This document shows positions 1 to 7,165 of a stretch of 7,165 nucleotides of DNA, piece by piece. The stretch comes from an uncultured Ruminococcus sp. (lineage in GTDB: Bacteria; Bacillota_A; Clostridia; Oscillospirales; Ruminococcaceae), in assembly GCA_947303535.1 (NCBI GenBank), contig CAMYYQ010000049.1, forward strand, positions 1 through 7,165. Reading direction: 5' to 3'. Made by a program: the position numbers and the translations under genes. Numbering within the stretch: position 1 is the stretch's first letter; every line of letters starts with the position of its first letter. The notes under the pieces are model-generated. The model was not told where the DNA came from, did not search any database, and saw nothing but the letters and a program-made list of their open reading frames with translations.

Positions 1-335
1 AGGCGATATCTGAGCTTATTGTAATCCAGCTTCAGATAAACGATAAAACCGTTATCGGCAAGATTTTTCATTGCTTTTCTGCCGTAAACAACACTTCCGC
101 CCGTAGCGATGACTGAATTTTCCGCATCAAGCCTGCTGAGAATACTGTTTTCGGTCTCAATAAAGCCGTCAACACCTTTTTCAGCAATGATATCTTTCAG
201 AAGCTTCTTTTCCTGCTCCTGTATTATCAGATCAGTGTCTATAAATTTGCAGCCAAGGAGTTTTGCAAGAATAACTCCTATGGTGCTTTTGCCTACTCCC
301 GGCATACCTATCAATACAATATTCTTTTTCACCAT
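1..335 (-). CDS. Shikimate-kinase-family protein (AroK-like), N-terminal part, runs off left edge
   Basis: This is a P-loop kinase of the shikimate kinase family (COG0703). That family phosphorylates shikimate to shikimate-3-phosphate with ATP in the cytoplasmic chorismate pathway. The 111 visible residues start MVKKNIVLIG. The Walker A motif GMPGVGKS lies at residues 10-17, the FIDTD motif at 31-35 (Mg and substrate aspartates), and ATGGS at 77-81. Two family positions differ. The usual GFR, whose Arg contacts shikimate, reads GFI (Ile59), and the usual GGG reads GGS (79-81). I recall similar GGS-type proteins in other anaerobes being annotated as shikimate kinase, so the family call is firm but the substrate is not. 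The ATG at 333-335 is chosen because an in-frame stop lies a few codons upstream. A GAGG element sits about 13 bases before it, which is rather far. The C-terminus, including the lid arginines, is outside the window. Confidence 0.85.
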   Translation of the reverse strand, partial: MVKKNIVLIGMPGVGKSTIGVILAKLLGCKFIDTDLIIQEQEKKLLKDIIAEKGVDGFIETENSILSRLDAENSVIATGGSVVYGRKAMKNLADNGFIVYLKLDYNKLRYR

Positions 336-499: not shown

Positions 500-1444
500 A
501 TGAACAAAAGTCCTTTTATATATTCTGATGACAACAAGCGTTACTACACGCTGAATTATTATAACAAAAACAAATACGGCAGAAAGATATACAAAGCCGT
601 TATCGACTGCGGTCTTACCTGTCCGAATATAGACGGTACAAAAGGAGTCGGCGGCTGTATTTTTTGTGACGGCGGAAGCGGATATTTCACTCACACAGGT
701 CTGACCATACATGAGCAGCTTAAAAGAGAATACGAACGTATATCTCAAAAATATGGTAAAGGTGCAGAGTTCACCGCATATTTTCAGGCAAACACGAATA
801 CATATGCCCCTTGCAGCATCCTGAAAGAGCTCTTTTATTCAGCTTTGGAATTCCCAAACGTATGCGGTCTGTCTATCGGAACTCGCGCTGACTGTCTGTC
901 AGACGATATCATCGGACTTCTGTGTGATATAAACGAAAAAACAAATCTTACTGTAGAACTTGGAATGCAGAGCTGCCACGAGGAAAGTCTGAAACTGATA
1001 AACCGCTGCTGCACCCACAAGGAATTTCTTGAAGGGTATTATAAGCTCAAAGCAAAAAGCATAAGAGTCTGTCTGCACATCATCAATGGACTGCCTTTTG
1101 AAACTCCCGAAATGATGCTTGATACGGCTTATGAGATCGCAAAAATGAAGCCCGATGCGTTAAAGCTTCAAATGCTCCATGTTATCAGGGGAACACAGCT
1201 TGAAAAAATGTATAAAAACAATGAATTCAAGCTTTTAGAGCGAGATGAATACATTGATATAATCGTAAAACAACTTGAAATATTACCGCCTCAGACAGTT
1301 ATCGAACGTATAACAGGTGACGGTGACAAATCAAAACTCATTGCACCTATGTGGAGTGCGGACAAGATAGCAGTCCTCGGAGGGATAGACAAAAAGCTTG
1401 CCGAACTTGACACATGGCAAGGCAGGCTATATACCGAAAAATAA
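500..1444 (+). CDS. TIGR01212-family radical SAM protein (YhcC/YtqA type)
   Basis: This 314-residue protein has the normal length of the YhcC/YtqA family (COG1242). Radical SAM enzymes use a [4Fe-4S] cluster to cleave S-adenosylmethionine into a 5'-deoxyadenosyl radical. The likely cluster cysteines are Cys41, Cys53 and Cys56, in TCPNIDGTKGVGGCIFC. This is the long-spaced motif of the family rather than the common CxxxCxxC. Further family signatures are AYFQANTNTYAP (about 93-104), SIGTRADCL (about 126-134) and ELGMQS (about 153-158). From established work as I recall it, Bacillus subtilis YtqA (MnmL) belongs to this family and acts in forming the wobble-uridine modification mnm5s2U in tRNA. 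That role is possible here but not shown, and no partner methylase gene (MnmM/YtqB) is next to it. AAGGAGG at 487-493 sits 6 bases before the ATG and fixes the start. The TAA stop lies inside the base of the downstream terminator stem. Confidence 0.93.
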   Translation: MNKSPFIYSDDNKRYYTLNYYNKNKYGRKIYKAVIDCGLTCPNIDGTKGVGGCIFCDGGSGYFTHTGLTIHEQLKREYERISQKYGKGAEFTAYFQANTNTYAPCSILKELFYSALEFPNVCGLSIGTRADCLSDDIIGLLCDINEKTNLTVELGMQSCHEESLKLINRCCTHKEFLEGYYKLKAKSIRVCLHIINGLPFETPEMMLDTAYEIAKMKPDALKLQMLHVIRGTQLEKMYKNNEFKLLERDEYIDIIVKQLEILPPQTVIERITGDGDKSKLIAPMWSADKIAVLGGIDKKLAELDTWQGRLYTEK

Positions 1445-1473
1445 GGCAGGGATATTTCCTGCCTTAATGTTTT
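1437..1473. terminator. Bidirectional intrinsic terminator between convergent genes
   Basis: A perfect 9-bp stem, TAAGGCAGG (1442-1450) with CCTGCCTTA (1458-1466), encloses a 7-base loop. For minus-strand transcripts the stem is followed directly by five T residues (1441-1437), an excellent terminator for the lon-ysxC-lysA operon. For plus-strand transcripts it is followed by ATGTTTTATAT, a weaker T tract. The radical SAM stop codon (1442-1444) forms the first three bases of the stem, and the lysA stop begins six bases beyond it at 1472-1474. One hairpin therefore serves both genes. Confidence 0.9.
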
Positions 1474-2770
1474 ATATATCGTTTCTTATGATATCATCAA
1501 GTGTCTCTCTCTTAACAGCTATTCTCGATTTGCCTTCGTTTACAAATACGACAGCCGGCTTCTGAAGTCTGTTATAGTTCGATGACATTGAATAATTATA
1601 TGCACCTGTTGCACATACAGCGATTATATCTCCTGATTCTGCGTGCTGGAGCGGCATATTCTCGCCGATAAGGTCACCGCTTTCGCAGCATTTACCTGCA
1701 ATGGTGACCTTTTCGCTGCGCTCTTCATTTGCTTTATTCGCAACTATAGCCTCATATTCAGAACCGTAAAGGATATATCTCGGGCTATCAGCCATACCGC
1801 CGTCTACGGAGATATAAGTTCTTATGTTAGGTATCTCTTTACGCGCACCGACTGTATAAAGTGTTATTCCTGCGGGAGCTGCTATAGAACGTCCGGGTTC
1901 TATGTACATAATCGGCAGAGCTACACCAAGCTTCTCACATTCTGCCCTTACAACGCCTGAAACTCTTTCAAGATATACTTCAAAAGGTGCATGATCGTGC
2001 TCATCAAGATACTTTATACCAAAACCGCCGCCAAGATTGAGCCCCTTGACCTCGAAACCGAGATCATTCTTTATCTTTGCGATAAATCCAAGCATTACTC
2101 TTGCTGCTTCTTCAAAAGGTGCGATATCAAAGATCTGCGAACCTATGTGGCAGTGTAGTCCGCTTAAATTTACGTTTTTGCAGTTTATAGCCTCTTTGAC
2201 AGCTTCAAACGCCTCTCCTGTTTCAAGAGCAAAGCCAAATTTACTGTCGATCTGACCTGTTTTTACAAAATCATGGGTATGAGCGTCAATACCGGGTTTT
2301 ATACGGAACATAATATCAGGTTTTACATTCATTTCTGCCGCAATAGCTTCAAGTCTATGAAGCTCGCTTATATTATCGACTATGATATGTCCAACGCCGT
2401 CTTTCAATGCGAAACGCAGTTCTTCATCGGTCTTATTGTTGCCGTGGAAGCCGACTTTGTCCATAGGAAATCCTGCCTTATAAGCCGTATAAAGCTCTCC
2501 TATCGAAACTGCATCAAGACCGTCTCCTTCGCTTGCGACGATCCTGCACATCTCCATGCAGGAAAAAGCCTTGCTCGCATAGTGAACTTCACCTTTTCCG
2601 TCATAATACTTTTTCATACTGTCATGGAAACGGCGAAGAGTTTTTCTTATAAGCTGTTCGTCCATAACATAAAGCGGAGTGCCGTATTCCTTTGCAAGCT
2701 CCACTGTATCAACTCCGCCGATAGTAAGGTTACCTGCGCTATTGACAACGAGATTTTCGGATACAAACAT
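1472..2770 (-). CDS. lysA: Diaminopimelate decarboxylase
   Basis: This is a PLP-dependent fold type III enzyme that decarboxylates meso-2,6-diaminopimelate to L-lysine, the last step of lysine synthesis in the cytoplasm. Residue numbers here count from the longer ATG at 2779; subtract 3 for the preferred start. Lys70 in HYASKAF is the PLP Schiff-base lysine. HCHIGSQ lies at 209-215 and a glycine-rich phosphate-binding loop NLGGGFG at 248-254. YIEPGRS is at 292-298, and CESGD at 365-369 supplies the cysteine that completes the partner active site in the dimer. TGAYNYSMSSNYN (391-403) holds the C-terminal PLP/substrate tyrosine region. Length and order of motifs are normal. It is the last gene of the lon-ysxC-lysA operon, starting 24 bases after the ysxC stop, with no promoter of its own visible. 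The protein looks intact and fully functional. Confidence 0.97.
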   Translation of the reverse strand: MFVSENLVVNSAGNLTIGGVDTVELAKEYGTPLYVMDEQLIRKTLRRFHDSMKKYYDGKGEVHYASKAFSCMEMCRIVASEGDGLDAVSIGELYTAYKAGFPMDKVGFHGNNKTDEELRFALKDGVGHIIVDNISELHRLEAIAAEMNVKPDIMFRIKPGIDAHTHDFVKTGQIDSKFGFALETGEAFEAVKEAINCKNVNLSGLHCHIGSQIFDIAPFEEAARVMLGFIAKIKNDLGFEVKGLNLGGGFGIKYLDEHDHAPFEVYLERVSGVVRAECEKLGVALPIMYIEPGRSIAAPAGITLYTVGARKEIPNIRTYISVDGGMADSPRYILYGSEYEAIVANKANEERSEKVTIAGKCCESGDLIGENMPLQHAESGDIIAVCATGAYNYSMSSNYNRLQKPAVVFVNEGKSRIAVKRETLDDIIRNDI

Positions 2771-2778
2771 TTTTAACA

Positions 2779-2785
2779 TCCTTTC
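2779..2785 (-). promoter_or_regulatory. Ribosome binding site that decides the lysA start
   Basis: The minus-strand sequence GAAAGGA touches or overlaps the first possible ATG (2777-2779), leaving no room for initiation there. It sits about 8-9 bases before the second ATG (2768-2770), a normal spacing. The protein therefore most likely begins MFVSENL rather than MLKMFVSENL, three residues shorter. Confidence 0.6.
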
Positions 2786-2794
2786 AGGTATAAT

Positions 2795-3403
2795 TTATTC
2801 ATCAGTGACGTCATTGTCATCTGTGATATCCTCAACGATCTGTCTTAATTCCTCAACACCTTCAAATGTCTGAGAAGAAAAAGGTATAACATGAATATCT
2901 TCAAAACACGGTATCTCGTCCTTGAAAGCTTCCATACGCTTTGCCCGCTCCGTCTTGTTTAGCTTATCTGCTTTTGTAAGCACGATAACGAACGGCATTT
3001 CCGTGTCTATGAGATAATTTATCATCTGAACATCATCTTTTGTGGGAGCATGACGCATATCCACGAGCATGAATACAAGTCTGATATCTCTGTCGGAGCT
3101 GAGGTATCCTTCGATAAGCCCCGACCAGCGCTCCTTTTCCGACTTTGCAACCTTAGCATATCCGTATCCCGGAAGATCTACAAAATATATATTTTCCAGA
3201 CCGTAGAAATTTATCGTTGCAGTCTTTCCCGGAACAGAACTGACTCTTGCAAGATTTTTCCTGTTGAAAAGCTTATTTATGAGCGTTGACTTTCCTACAT
3301 TTGAATGTCCTGCAAATGCTATCTCTATCCTCTCGGGCGCAGGTATCTGAGAAAACTTTCCATATGCGGCGGTAAACTCCGCTTTGTTGTAATTCAGCTT
3401 CAC
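2795..3403 (-). CDS. engB: Ribosome biogenesis GTP-binding protein YsxC/EngB
   Basis: This 202-residue single-domain P-loop GTPase of the TrmE-Era-EngA-YihA class has the usual length for YsxC. The family is essential in Bacillus and acts in assembly of the 50S ribosomal subunit. All G motifs are visible: G1 GHSNVGKS at 32-39, G2 threonine within GKTATINFY (59-67), G3 DLPG at 76-79, G4 TKAD at 143-146, and G5 SSQ at 176-178. The family signature GYGYAKV is at 79-85. The start is GTG at 3401-3403, supported by a perfect AAGGAGG (3412-3418) 8 bases upstream. It lies 23 bases after the lon stop. The lon-ysxC order is conserved in many Firmicutes, often with clpX before lon. The tail is acidic (EDITDDNDVTDE). 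Nothing is missing or unusual. Confidence 0.96.
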   Translation of the reverse strand: MKLNYNKAEFTAAYGKFSQIPAPERIEIAFAGHSNVGKSTLINKLFNRKNLARVSSVPGKTATINFYGLENIYFVDLPGYGYAKVAKSEKERWSGLIEGYLSSDRDIRLVFMLVDMRHAPTKDDVQMINYLIDTEMPFVIVLTKADKLNKTERAKRMEAFKDEIPCFEDIHVIPFSSQTFEGVEELRQIVEDITDDNDVTDE

Positions 3404-3426: not shown

Positions 3427-5595
3427 TTATTTTATAAGTGCTCTGTCAAGAACATCTTTGAGATCTTCTGCGTATACAAATTCTATAGGAAGAACTTTAC
3501 CGTGAAGTGTGACTTCACCTGTCATAGCGACATCTGATCTCACCTTAGTTCCCGAAAGTGCGGAAACAAGTGCAGTAGTCATAGTAACGCCCGCAGAAGG
3601 ACCGTCCTTTGGTACAGCTCCCTCGGGAGCATGGATATGGATATCGTTCTCCTTGTAGAAATCAGGAGAAATGCCGTATTTATCAGCAATACTGCGGACA
3701 TAGCTAACAGCTATCTTCGAGCTTTCTAGAACTTCGATAGGCATGAGAACTCCGCCGACTGATGTCCATGCGAGACCGTTTACAACGCCGACCTGATCTT
3801 TCTGTGATGAAAGATCGCCAAGATACTTGCGTATTCCGAGATAATCATTGATATCCTTAGCCTTTATGGTAACTCGTTTAGCTTCTCCTGAGGCTACTTT
3901 CTTTGCAGTTTTTCTGCAAAGCGAAGCTATGCTCCTTTCAAGAGAACGAACACCTGCTTCTTTAGTGTAGTACTGAATAAGCTCATTAATAGCATCATCA
4001 CTTATCTTGAGCTGAGTTGCCTTTAATCCCTGTTCCTTGAGCTGCTTCGGGATAAGGTGTTCCTTGGCAATGTGGAACTTCTCCTCTGCGGTATAGCTCG
4101 GGAGCTCGATAACTTCCATTCTGTCAAGAAGAGGTGCAGGTATAGCACCTACATTATTCGCTGTTGTAATAAATACTGCTTTGCTGAGATCAAAAGGTAC
4201 TTCTATGAAGTGATCGCGGAAAGCATTATTCTGCTCGGCATCAAGCACCTCAAGCATAGCTGATGAAGGATCGCCCTTGATATCACTGCAAAGCTTGTCT
4301 ATCTCGTCAAAAAGGATAAGCGGATTTGCAGAACCTGCCTGTGATATAGCTGTTATGATACGTCCCGGCATAGCTCCGACGTATGTCTTTCTGTGTCCTC
4401 TGATATCAGCTTCGTCACGAACGCCGCCCAATGAAACACGGGCATATTTTCTTCCCATAGCCTTAGCAATAGACTTTGCGATAGAAGTCTTACCAATACC
4501 TGGAGGGCCTGCAAGACAGATGATCTGTCCCTTTATCTCGGGATTGAGCATATGAACGGCAAGGAATTCAAGGATACGCTCCTTGACCTTTTTCAGTCCG
4601 TAATGATCTTTTTCAAGTACTGCTTCCGCCTTATCCATTGAAAGCTTAGCCTTAGTGTATTTCCCCCACGGCAGATCAAGCACAGTATCAAGATAATTCT
4701 TGATGACAAATGCTTCCTGAGATGACGGCGGCAGCTTTGTAAGCTTGTCAGCCTCTTTAAGAAGCTTCTCCTTGCTCTTCTCATCTATCTTCAGATCCAT
4801 TATGTCATTAATATAGCCAAAGGCTTCTTCGCCCTCGTCCTCACCAAGCTGCTCCTGGATAACTCTGAGCTGTTCACGCAGGTAAAACTCGCGCTGTCCC
4901 TTGTCTATACTGTTTTTTGTCTGCTCGTTTATAAGGTTTTCAAGCTCTAATATTTCTACCTCCGAGGTAAGACAAGCAAAAAGAACTGAAAGCTTGTTTA
5001 TAACATTAGTCTCTTCAAGAAGAGTCTGCTTGTCGCGATAATTGAGGTTGCAGTTGAAAGTTACTGTCTCAAAAAGCTTTACAGGTGAATCCTGTGTAAC
5101 TATTGAAGTGAGCAGCTCCTTGGGCATTCTCGGGAAGAACGAAGCATAACGCTCAAAAACGTCCTTGACTGTGCGCATCAATGCTTCTGCTTCAACTTCA
5201 TCAAGCTTTGCCCTTGAATAAGTTGGAGTACGCTTTACCTCAGCTTTAAGGACTTCGCCGTCGTCGATAAGTCTTACAAGATTTGCCTTGTATACGCCTT
5301 CTACAAGGACCTTCATGATATTGTCGGGAAGCTTCAGTACCTGCTTTACTTCCGCAACGACTCCGACTTTATAAAGGTCGGAAGCTTTAGGATTTTCAAC
5401 ATATGCCTCATGCTGTGTTACAAGGAAAAGCTTGCCTCCCTCTTTCAAAGAACGTTCAACAGCAGCCACGGATTTGCTGCGTGAAACATCAAAATGCATT
5501 ACCATTTTCGGAAAAGCAACAAGACCTCTCATTGCAACTGTATAAAGAATATTCGCCTCTTCTATATTTTTATCACTCTTGATGGTTTGTTCCAT
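3427..5595 (-). CDS. lon: Lon-type AAA+ protease with an apparently gapped protease domain
   Basis: LonA is a cytoplasmic ATP-dependent serine protease that degrades misfolded and regulatory proteins. The N-terminal substrate domain (about 15-210), helical linker with REFYLREQL (235-243) and AAA+ module are normal. Walker A is GPPGIGKT (363-370), Walker B LILFDEID (426-433), sensor-1 Asn about 480, arginine finger LLDR (489-492), sensor-2 GVRSLER (548-554). In the protease domain GLAWTSVGG, MPIEV, IHIHAPEGAVPKDGPSAG and the catalytic Ser667 are present. Two conserved blocks are missing. MPIEV (618-622) runs straight into LESSK, skipping the G-x-G-x4-TG-x-LG-x-VM stretch. VLPI (701-704) runs straight into EFVYAED, skipping GGLKEK with the catalytic Lys. 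At 722 residues it is about 60 shorter than typical LonA. It may lack peptidase activity. The start ATG has only a weak GGTGA ribosome site. It is first in the operon with ysxC and lysA. Confidence 0.93.
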   Translation of the reverse strand: MEQTIKSDKNIEEANILYTVAMRGLVAFPKMVMHFDVSRSKSVAAVERSLKEGGKLFLVTQHEAYVENPKASDLYKVGVVAEVKQVLKLPDNIMKVLVEGVYKANLVRLIDDGEVLKAEVKRTPTYSRAKLDEVEAEALMRTVKDVFERYASFFPRMPKELLTSIVTQDSPVKLFETVTFNCNLNYRDKQTLLEETNVINKLSVLFACLTSEVEILELENLINEQTKNSIDKGQREFYLREQLRVIQEQLGEDEGEEAFGYINDIMDLKIDEKSKEKLLKEADKLTKLPPSSQEAFVIKNYLDTVLDLPWGKYTKAKLSMDKAEAVLEKDHYGLKKVKERILEFLAVHMLNPEIKGQIICLAGPPGIGKTSIAKSIAKAMGRKYARVSLGGVRDEADIRGHRKTYVGAMPGRIITAISQAGSANPLILFDEIDKLCSDIKGDPSSAMLEVLDAEQNNAFRDHFIEVPFDLSKAVFITTANNVGAIPAPLLDRMEVIELPSYTAEEKFHIAKEHLIPKQLKEQGLKATQLKISDDAINELIQYYTKEAGVRSLERSIASLCRKTAKKVASGEAKRVTIKAKDINDYLGIRKYLGDLSSQKDQVGVVNGLAWTSVGGVLMPIEVLESSKIAVSYVRSIADKYGISPDFYKENDIHIHAPEGAVPKDGPSAGVTMTTALVSALSGTKVRSDVAMTGEVTLHGKVLPIEFVYAEDLKDVLDRALIK

Positions 5596-6054: not shown

Positions 6055-6357
6055 ATGATCGACAAAATCAAATCCGAAAGCATGGATCTGCTCTTTGAAG
6101 CTATACTTACACTTGACTCAGTAGATGACTGTTATAAGTTCTTTGACGATCTCTGCACCAGCATCGAACTGAAAGCGTTTGCTCAGCGTCTTCACGTTGC
6201 TAAGCTCCTTGATGAACACAGAGTCTATAACAGCATCGTGACAGAAACAGGTGCAAGTACTGCTACGATAAGCAGAGTAAACCGTTCTTTAAAAGACGGA
6301 AACGATGGATATAACATAGTTTTTGACAGACTTAAAAAGAAAAATCTGCTCAAGTAA
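6055..6357 (+). CDS. YerC/YecD family TrpR-related regulator
   Basis: This 100-residue protein has the length and all-helical character of the YerC/YecD family (TIGR02531), which is related to the tryptophan repressor TrpR. TrpR-like proteins are dimeric helix-turn-helix DNA-binding proteins. The recognisable features are the family N-terminal part (LFEAILTLDSVDDCYKFFDD, about 13-32), the SIELKAFAQRLHVAKLL helices (about 36-52), and a helix-turn-helix in YNSIVTETGASTATISRVNR (about 58-77). The basic tail FDRLKKKNLLK follows. The function of YerC is not well established and the ligand is unknown. The GGAG at 6044-6047 lies 7 bases before the ATG. In several Firmicutes I recall yerC beside pcrA-ligA, whereas here its neighbours are lon and a cellulase. 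No clear terminator follows, so readthrough into the cellulase gene is possible. The molecule looks complete. Confidence 0.93.
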   Translation: MIDKIKSESMDLLFEAILTLDSVDDCYKFFDDLCTSIELKAFAQRLHVAKLLDEHRVYNSIVTETGASTATISRVNRSLKDGNDGYNIVFDRLKKKNLLK

Positions 6358-6435: not shown

Positions 6436-7165
6436 ATGAAAAAGGCGAAGATACTCAAAAAATCATTAGCCTGCTTGTCTGCTGCCGCTACTATTCTTTC
6501 AAGCGGTATCATCACAAGCGCAAATGCCGCAGTTATCACTGAGGGCAAGACAAACAACTATCACAACTACGCAGAGGCTTTACAGCTTGCGCTGTGCTTC
6601 TACGACGCAAACAAGTGCGGTGACGAGGTTGCTGATGACGGTTACTATTCATGGCGTTCAAACTGTCACGTTATCGACGCAGAGATCCCGCTCCAGCCAA
6701 TGAGTCCTATGCCTACAGTCGGCAAGGGCAAGACTGATGATCAGCTCAAGGAAGATCAGGGACTTGGTGCAGGCGATGACGGTAAAACAAAGCCAAATCT
6801 CGGTGACGATGATCCTGCTCTTTATGTCGGCGTAAATATGAGTCAGTCATTCATCGAAAAGAACAAGAAGTACCTCGATCCCGACGGAAACGGCACTCTT
6901 GATCTTACAGGCGGCTGGCACGATGCCGGTGACCACGTAAAGTTCGGTCTCCCGGGAAGCTATTCAGCTTCTACAGTGGGCTGGGGTTATTATGAATTCC
7001 GTGACTCTTATGAAGAGCTCGGACTCCAGAAGCACGTTGAAGATGAACTTCGCTGGATAAACGACTACTTCATGAAAGCAACATTTATGGACGATGACGG
7101 AAACGTAATCGCTTACTGTTATCAGGTCGGAGAGGGTAATAACGACCATAACTACTGGTGTCCTC
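6436..7165 (+). CDS. Secreted glycoside hydrolase family 9 (endoglucanase), N-terminal part, runs off right edge
   Basis: GH9 enzymes hydrolyse beta-1,4-glucans such as cellulose with inversion. The 243 visible residues begin with a signal peptide: basic MKKAKILKK, a hydrophobic core, and a cleavage site SANA|AV after residue 31. NYHNYAEALQLALCFYDANKCG (41-62) and YYSWRSNCH (70-78) are the first helix and loop of the GH9 barrel. DLTGGWHDAGDHVKFGLPGSYS (156-177) is the family signature, with DAGD (163-166) holding the aspartates that activate the nucleophilic water. The acid-base Glu lies beyond the window. Between His78 and Asp156 there is an unusually long acidic, low-complexity insert including GAGDDGKTKPNLGDDDP. 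No binding module or dockerin is visible yet. AAAGGA at 6421-6426 precedes the ATG by 9 bases. Codons favour AAC, AAG, TAC and CTC more than the neighbouring genes do, suggesting high expression. The protein probably acts outside the cell or on the cell surface. Confidence 0.93.
   Translation, partial: MKKAKILKKSLACLSAAATILSSGIITSANAAVITEGKTNNYHNYAEALQLALCFYDANKCGDEVADDGYYSWRSNCHVIDAEIPLQPMSPMPTVGKGKTDDQLKEDQGLGAGDDGKTKPNLGDDDPALYVGVNMSQSFIEKNKKYLDPDGNGTLDLTGGWHDAGDHVKFGLPGSYSASTVGWGYYEFRDSYEELGLQKHVEDELRWINDYFMKATFMDDDGNVIAYCYQVGEGNNDHNYWCP

Follow-up and report, generated by a model that had tools for sequence, protein, structure and literature searches.

In E. coli Lon the catalytic dyad is formed by Ser679 and Lys722, the lysine thus following 43 residues after the serine, and a proline directly before the catalytic serine is given as a rule for LonA (PMC9569914). 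Peptidase-dead Lon has been engineered by point changes, S679A in E. coli and S855A in human LONP1, which leave the AAA+ part intact and abolish a working Ser-Lys dyad. For the anti-aggregation activity of human LONP1, ATP hydrolysis is described as critical and protease activity as not critical (PMC8368198). Outside the Lon proteases, an ATPase is joined to a Lon-type domain in RadA, ComM/YifB-like proteins and BrxL, where these domains are folded and form families of their own. At the level of titles and abstract openings, no natural peptidase-free Lon was recognised in the literature. Closest to the gene described here is the LonA of the Ruminococcus flavefaciens group (endopeptidase La, MEROPS S16, TIGR00763), represented by a protein of 780 aa (P0001) and by the loci of R. 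flavefaciens ATCC 19208 (L001) and of the nearest genome (L097/G020). Here we describe a lon gene at the same locus and in the same gene order that lacks two blocks of its protease domain.

The window, a stretch of 7,165 nucleotides from an uncultured Ruminococcus sp., was analysed over its whole length (Table 1). The product of its lon gene matches the profile TIGR00763 with an E-value of 7.5e-233 and the Pfam families LON_substr_bdg, AAA, Lon_lid and Lon_C. The N-terminal LON substrate-binding domain (PF02190, E 7.6e-39, residues 19-206), the AAA+ module (PF00004) and the Lon lid (PF22667) are all present. Except for the two gaps in lon and small indels, the window is syntenic over its full length with R. 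flavefaciens ATCC 19208; genome G020 is closer, with identities of 90.4% and 91.8% in two aligned pieces and approximately 92% over lon. A plasmid origin of lon and a phage origin of the window were rejected, as megablast matched neither lon to the plasmid collection nor the full-length window to the phage collection. Among the neighbouring genes, that of the GH9 glycoside hydrolase is the best conserved of the window (96% versus G020) and the TIGR01212 gene the most divergent (87%, versus 91-96% for the other genes). The YerC/YecD regulator gene, 95% identical with G020, starts 460 bases from the start of the oppositely oriented lon. The top model for the kinase-like gene is the homoserine-kinase exception NF040667, which scores below its cut-off and above the shikimate kinase models.

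Table 1. Features of the window with their coordinates and strand.
Feature	Position	Strand	Remarks
Start of shikimate/homoserine-kinase-like gene	3-335	(-)	Cut by window end
Radical SAM gene, TIGR01212 (MnmL/YtqA), tRNA modification	500-1444	(+)	
lysA	1472-2779	(-)	3' of ysxC
ysxC/engB GTPase gene	2795-3403	(-)	Directly 3' of lon; intact, no gap versus L001 or G020
lon, LonA-type ATP-dependent protease	3427-5595	(-)	ORF of 722 aa, two in-frame gaps in protease domain
Remaining protease domain, as modelled	3430-3816	(-)	Residues 594-722, 129 aa
Junction 2	3483/3484	(-)	117 bases (39 codons) of relatives absent, in frame; DNA alignment
Codon of catalytic Ser667, retained	3595-3597	(-)	Computed from ORF start at 5595
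Junction 1	3727/3728	(-)	57 bases (19 codons) of relatives absent, in frame; DNA alignment
YerC/YecD-family TrpR-related regulator	6055-6357	(+)	TIGR02531
Start of GH9 glycoside hydrolase gene	6436-7164	(+)	PF00759, E 8.4e-40; cut by window end

Both gaps appear in DNA alignments with each of three relatives (L001, L002 and G020/L097), which confirmed the sizes of about 19 and 39 residues, both in frame, that the initial annotation of this DNA had estimated. The two deletions are separated by 244 bases. Compared with L001 and with G020, the coding sequences as we annotated them, two of which run off the ends of the window, contain no other gap; the remaining indels are of 1 to 13 bases and all intergenic. 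Outside the gaps the protein differs from P0001 by 8 replacements, and its N-terminal part is nearly identical. The blocks named at the outset were the right ones, their wording less so: the retained text before junction 1 reads MPIEVL rather than MPIEV, the leucine belonging to the upstream side, and the motif lost at junction 2 is GGLREK in close relatives and not GGLKEK. Among the 111 of 121 ORFs with a match to this pattern, 83 have REK and 28 KEK. Displacement of the blocks was rejected, since a tblastn search for them elsewhere in the window gave a single match of 8 residues with an E-value of 0.26.

The distribution of the gaps was determined at 127 loci, of which 121 gave a Lon ORF under our reading rule; some loci represent the same genome repeatedly, hence these are not 121 independent cases. 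Six loci were left out, two whose Lon genes deviate from the exact serine motif of the rule (L057, L074) and four with shorter Lon-type genes (L083-L086). The related genome-contig loci came from a search with the window protein, of which the best 80 of many were kept, each with one long Lon frame, L070 being cut by a contig end. Both blocks are present in all 121 ORFs, the nearest genome included, and of the 52 invariant columns in a 60-sequence alignment 15 fall within them; these 15 are lacking in the window. Judged from these sequences, the gaps exceed the natural length variation of Lon. When the 3' piece of lon was compared with 125 genomes of the genus, 113 gave a match and 12 gave none; among the matches listed that reach a junction, alignments stop within a few bases of it, except for that of G017, which spans junction 1 carrying 57 extra bases. 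A search with residues 598-722 alone was expected to place any same-gapped protein above intact Lon, and none stood above intact P0001 among the best 120 of 7999 matches, which are cluster representatives only. P0001 represents 27 clustered sequences, and a same-gapped twin may hide inside a cluster; the matches listed for this and for the full-length search do not include the 722-aa protein of the window itself. Among the relatives examined, then, no other record shows the gaps. A changed form conserved across these relatives, as in RadA, ComM or BrxL, was thus not found: the window has a private gap in what is elsewhere a standard LonA. It had been proposed that a normal block at this locus in close relatives would make the gaps an artefact; the relatives examined do have the block, and the gaps are private, yet an artefact is not proven thereby.

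Codon changes private to the window were identified by parsimony with G020 and two outgroups. Before the protease domain 55 of these changes are silent and one is replacing, and in the remaining protease domain 10 are silent and one replacing, which gives 65 silent and two replacing changes for the whole gene; all differences from G020 amount to 156 silent and seven replacing. In these codons we see no sign of long decay, changed selection or new function. A gene that had long been unconstrained would show more replacing changes, hence the gaps would be either very recent or not real, and slow decay was ruled out since the private changes are almost all silent. The initial annotation had held that two in-frame gaps argue against simple decay. 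That argument is weak: both would be in frame by chance in one of nine cases, and two such neighbouring events free of missense load fit an artefact or one complex event as well. As to mutational causes, clustered base changes around the gaps were rejected, as nowhere in lon do at least three differences from G020 fall within 5 bases, and a hairpin-driven deletion found no support, the two segments of an intact relative, folded as single-stranded DNA, giving z-scores of -1.18 and 0.43. In the relatives the gaps are not flanked by long repeats. Depending on the relative, microhomology comprises 0-1 base at gap 1 and 1-4 bases at gap 2; as a measure of slippage at direct repeats, these figures take the relatives in place of the window's own ancestor, and about half of random placements leave at least one base of homology.

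The catalytic lysine expected 43 residues past the serine is absent from the window Lon: this position is occupied by Glu710, versus Lys729 in P0001, which bears out the original claim that the missing blocks include it. Also as originally read, Ser667 is retained, with its preceding proline and an intact PKDGPSAG loop. The ATPase motifs were rightly called intact, as five AAA+ segments, which we take to be Walker A, Walker B, sensor 1, the arginine finger and sensor 2, agree with P0001 in position and letters. Lacking the known Ser-Lys dyad, the protein would not be expected to cleave peptides by the known mechanism. The intact serine loop is followed by four lysines (684, 700, 713 and 722), any of which might conceivably pair with Ser667 in a rebuilt peptidase, an idea against which both the residue at position +43, a glutamate, and the predicted structure of the domain speak.

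PF05362 matches the window protein in two stretches, the best covering 68-149 of 205 positions, and an intact control in one stretch (23-204); a full-length match, and with it a complete protease domain, was thus not found. The control domain (L097, 184 aa) was predicted with a pLDDT of 91.1 and a pTM of 0.89, and its model superposes on E. coli Lon domains with an rmsd of approximately 1.7 and on the E. coli S679A structure 6u5z with an rmsd of 1.3. The window domain was predicted with a pLDDT of 81.2 and a pTM of 0.79; its model has no strand of at least three residues, and its best structural match has an rmsd of 6.9. The missing blocks correspond to residues 28-46 and 128-166 of the control domain. 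The first of these takes in the last part of the first long strand, the strand after it and the beginning of a helix, its loss removing the strand and loop ahead of the domain's first helix; the second contains the GGLREK helix with the catalytic lysine, the following strand and two more helices. RadA, ComM and BrxL retain a folded Lon-type domain as a ring scaffold; the predicted window domain, with no strand of at least three residues, superposes on Lon domains at an rmsd of about 7, yet it is still Lon-like in Foldseek (44 matches at E-values up to 0.001, TMq up to 0.76), a likeness that probably stems from the Lon pattern in the predictor's input alignment. The models suggest loss and not rebuilding of the protease core, and the protein is probably without a proper protease domain. 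In the engineered peptidase-dead enzymes the changes are point changes, and human LONP1 S855A presumably leaves the fold in place as the E. coli mutant does, whereas the window domain appears to lose it. A rebuilt peptidase, one of the options first considered, is therewith highly improbable: the model is without the helix and strand on which the control carries its dyad lysine, there are no supporting substitutions, no relative examined shares the change and no sign of changed selection was seen.

Ten close relatives (G001, G002 and eight more) each have one full-strength Lon_C match, in frames of 784-829 aa. The other Lon_C matches in these genomes are weak; judging from their position and from frame lengths of 458-518 aa, we take these to be ComM/YifB-like and RadA proteins. 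Since each of the ten has one full LonA, the window gene may be the organism's sole Lon. Each of 196 genomes of the class has some match, and in 40 of them (hand count) none is better than an E-value of 1e-40; in eight of these 40 the matches reach 1e-26 to 1e-33 and are perhaps other Lon types, and genome completeness is not given. Because of these 40 genomes, absence of LonA, or of a strong Lon match, seems common in the class.

The intact ATPase motifs, the kept frame and the conserved N-terminal part would suit a genuine Lon that, having lost its peptidase, now serves and is retained as an ATP-driven unfoldase or chaperone, as had been suggested; other systems, such as the anti-aggregation function of human LONP1, offer a possible precedent. 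In these precedents, however, either the protein is complete or its Lon-type domain is still folded, whereas the window Lon appears from its model to lose the core. Moreover, a point change would suffice to kill the peptidase without removal of 58 residues, two replacing changes in total form no adaptive pattern, and the change is absent from every relative examined. We therefore consider such a role unlikely. Quite improbable is also that a wild Ruminococcus lineage stripped the peptidase from its sole LonA by two in-frame excisions, with the substrate-binding and AAA+ parts under full constraint, to give a natural Lon unfoldase or chaperone.

If this were a new type of Lon, further genomes should carry it and its changes should form a pattern of their own; neither was seen, which leaves a null allele of recent origin or an artefact in the record. 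In the latter case the organism's lon would be normal, and the sequence would have been altered by chimerism or misassembly of reads, by amplification or in some other way. A sequencing or assembly fault was among the options first raised, and it gains support from the gaps being private to a single record among those examined. In its favour also count the full constraint on lon around the gaps, the lack of a decay signature at two neighbouring events and the one full LonA that each of the ten close relatives searched retains. Short-read assemblies usually go wrong at long repeats, and the gaps are without these; the contig is otherwise syntenic with relatives, its coding sequences are without any other indel, and the frame is kept at both gaps, all of which argues against a fault. 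Amplification chimeras that join in direct orientation do exist, though they are a minority (69 of 475, of which 11 join segments less than 10 kb apart; PMC1855051). On balance an artefact is a serious candidate, at somewhat less than an even chance.

The reading that we tentatively prefer, at close to an even chance, is a recent, private, peptidase-null allele of LonA in a single lineage. The protease domain would have lost 19 and 39 residues, both in frame, through two deletions or through one complex event, leaving a product that would keep the substrate-binding and AAA+ parts and lose the catalytic lysine and most of the protease core. The protease domain of Lon also contributes to formation of the Lon ring, and poor folding or assembly of the product is therefore probable. 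We infer that the peptidase would be inactive, the allele young and a second Lon missing from the organism; the cell would then be functionally without Lon, a loss that is tolerable to bacteria. In favour of the null allele, the frame is kept at both gaps and the window has no further coding indel. Two separate nearby deletions without missense changes are unlike the gradual decay of a null gene, however, and the double frame retention is a weak hint that a full-length product has been selected for. The lack of long repeats at the gaps in relatives also speaks against it, as does the overall resemblance of the shortened-domain model to Lon, which the predictor's input alignment favours. Null allele and artefact of the record carry near-equal weight, and only reads would separate them.

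Either outcome alters the general picture of Lon little. If the gaps are an artefact, they caution against inferring the loss of an enzyme from one contig. If they are real, a fully constrained LonA of a fibre-degrading rumen bacterium can abruptly lose its peptidase, and the lineage would offer a natural test of the role of the Lon ATPase apart from proteolysis.
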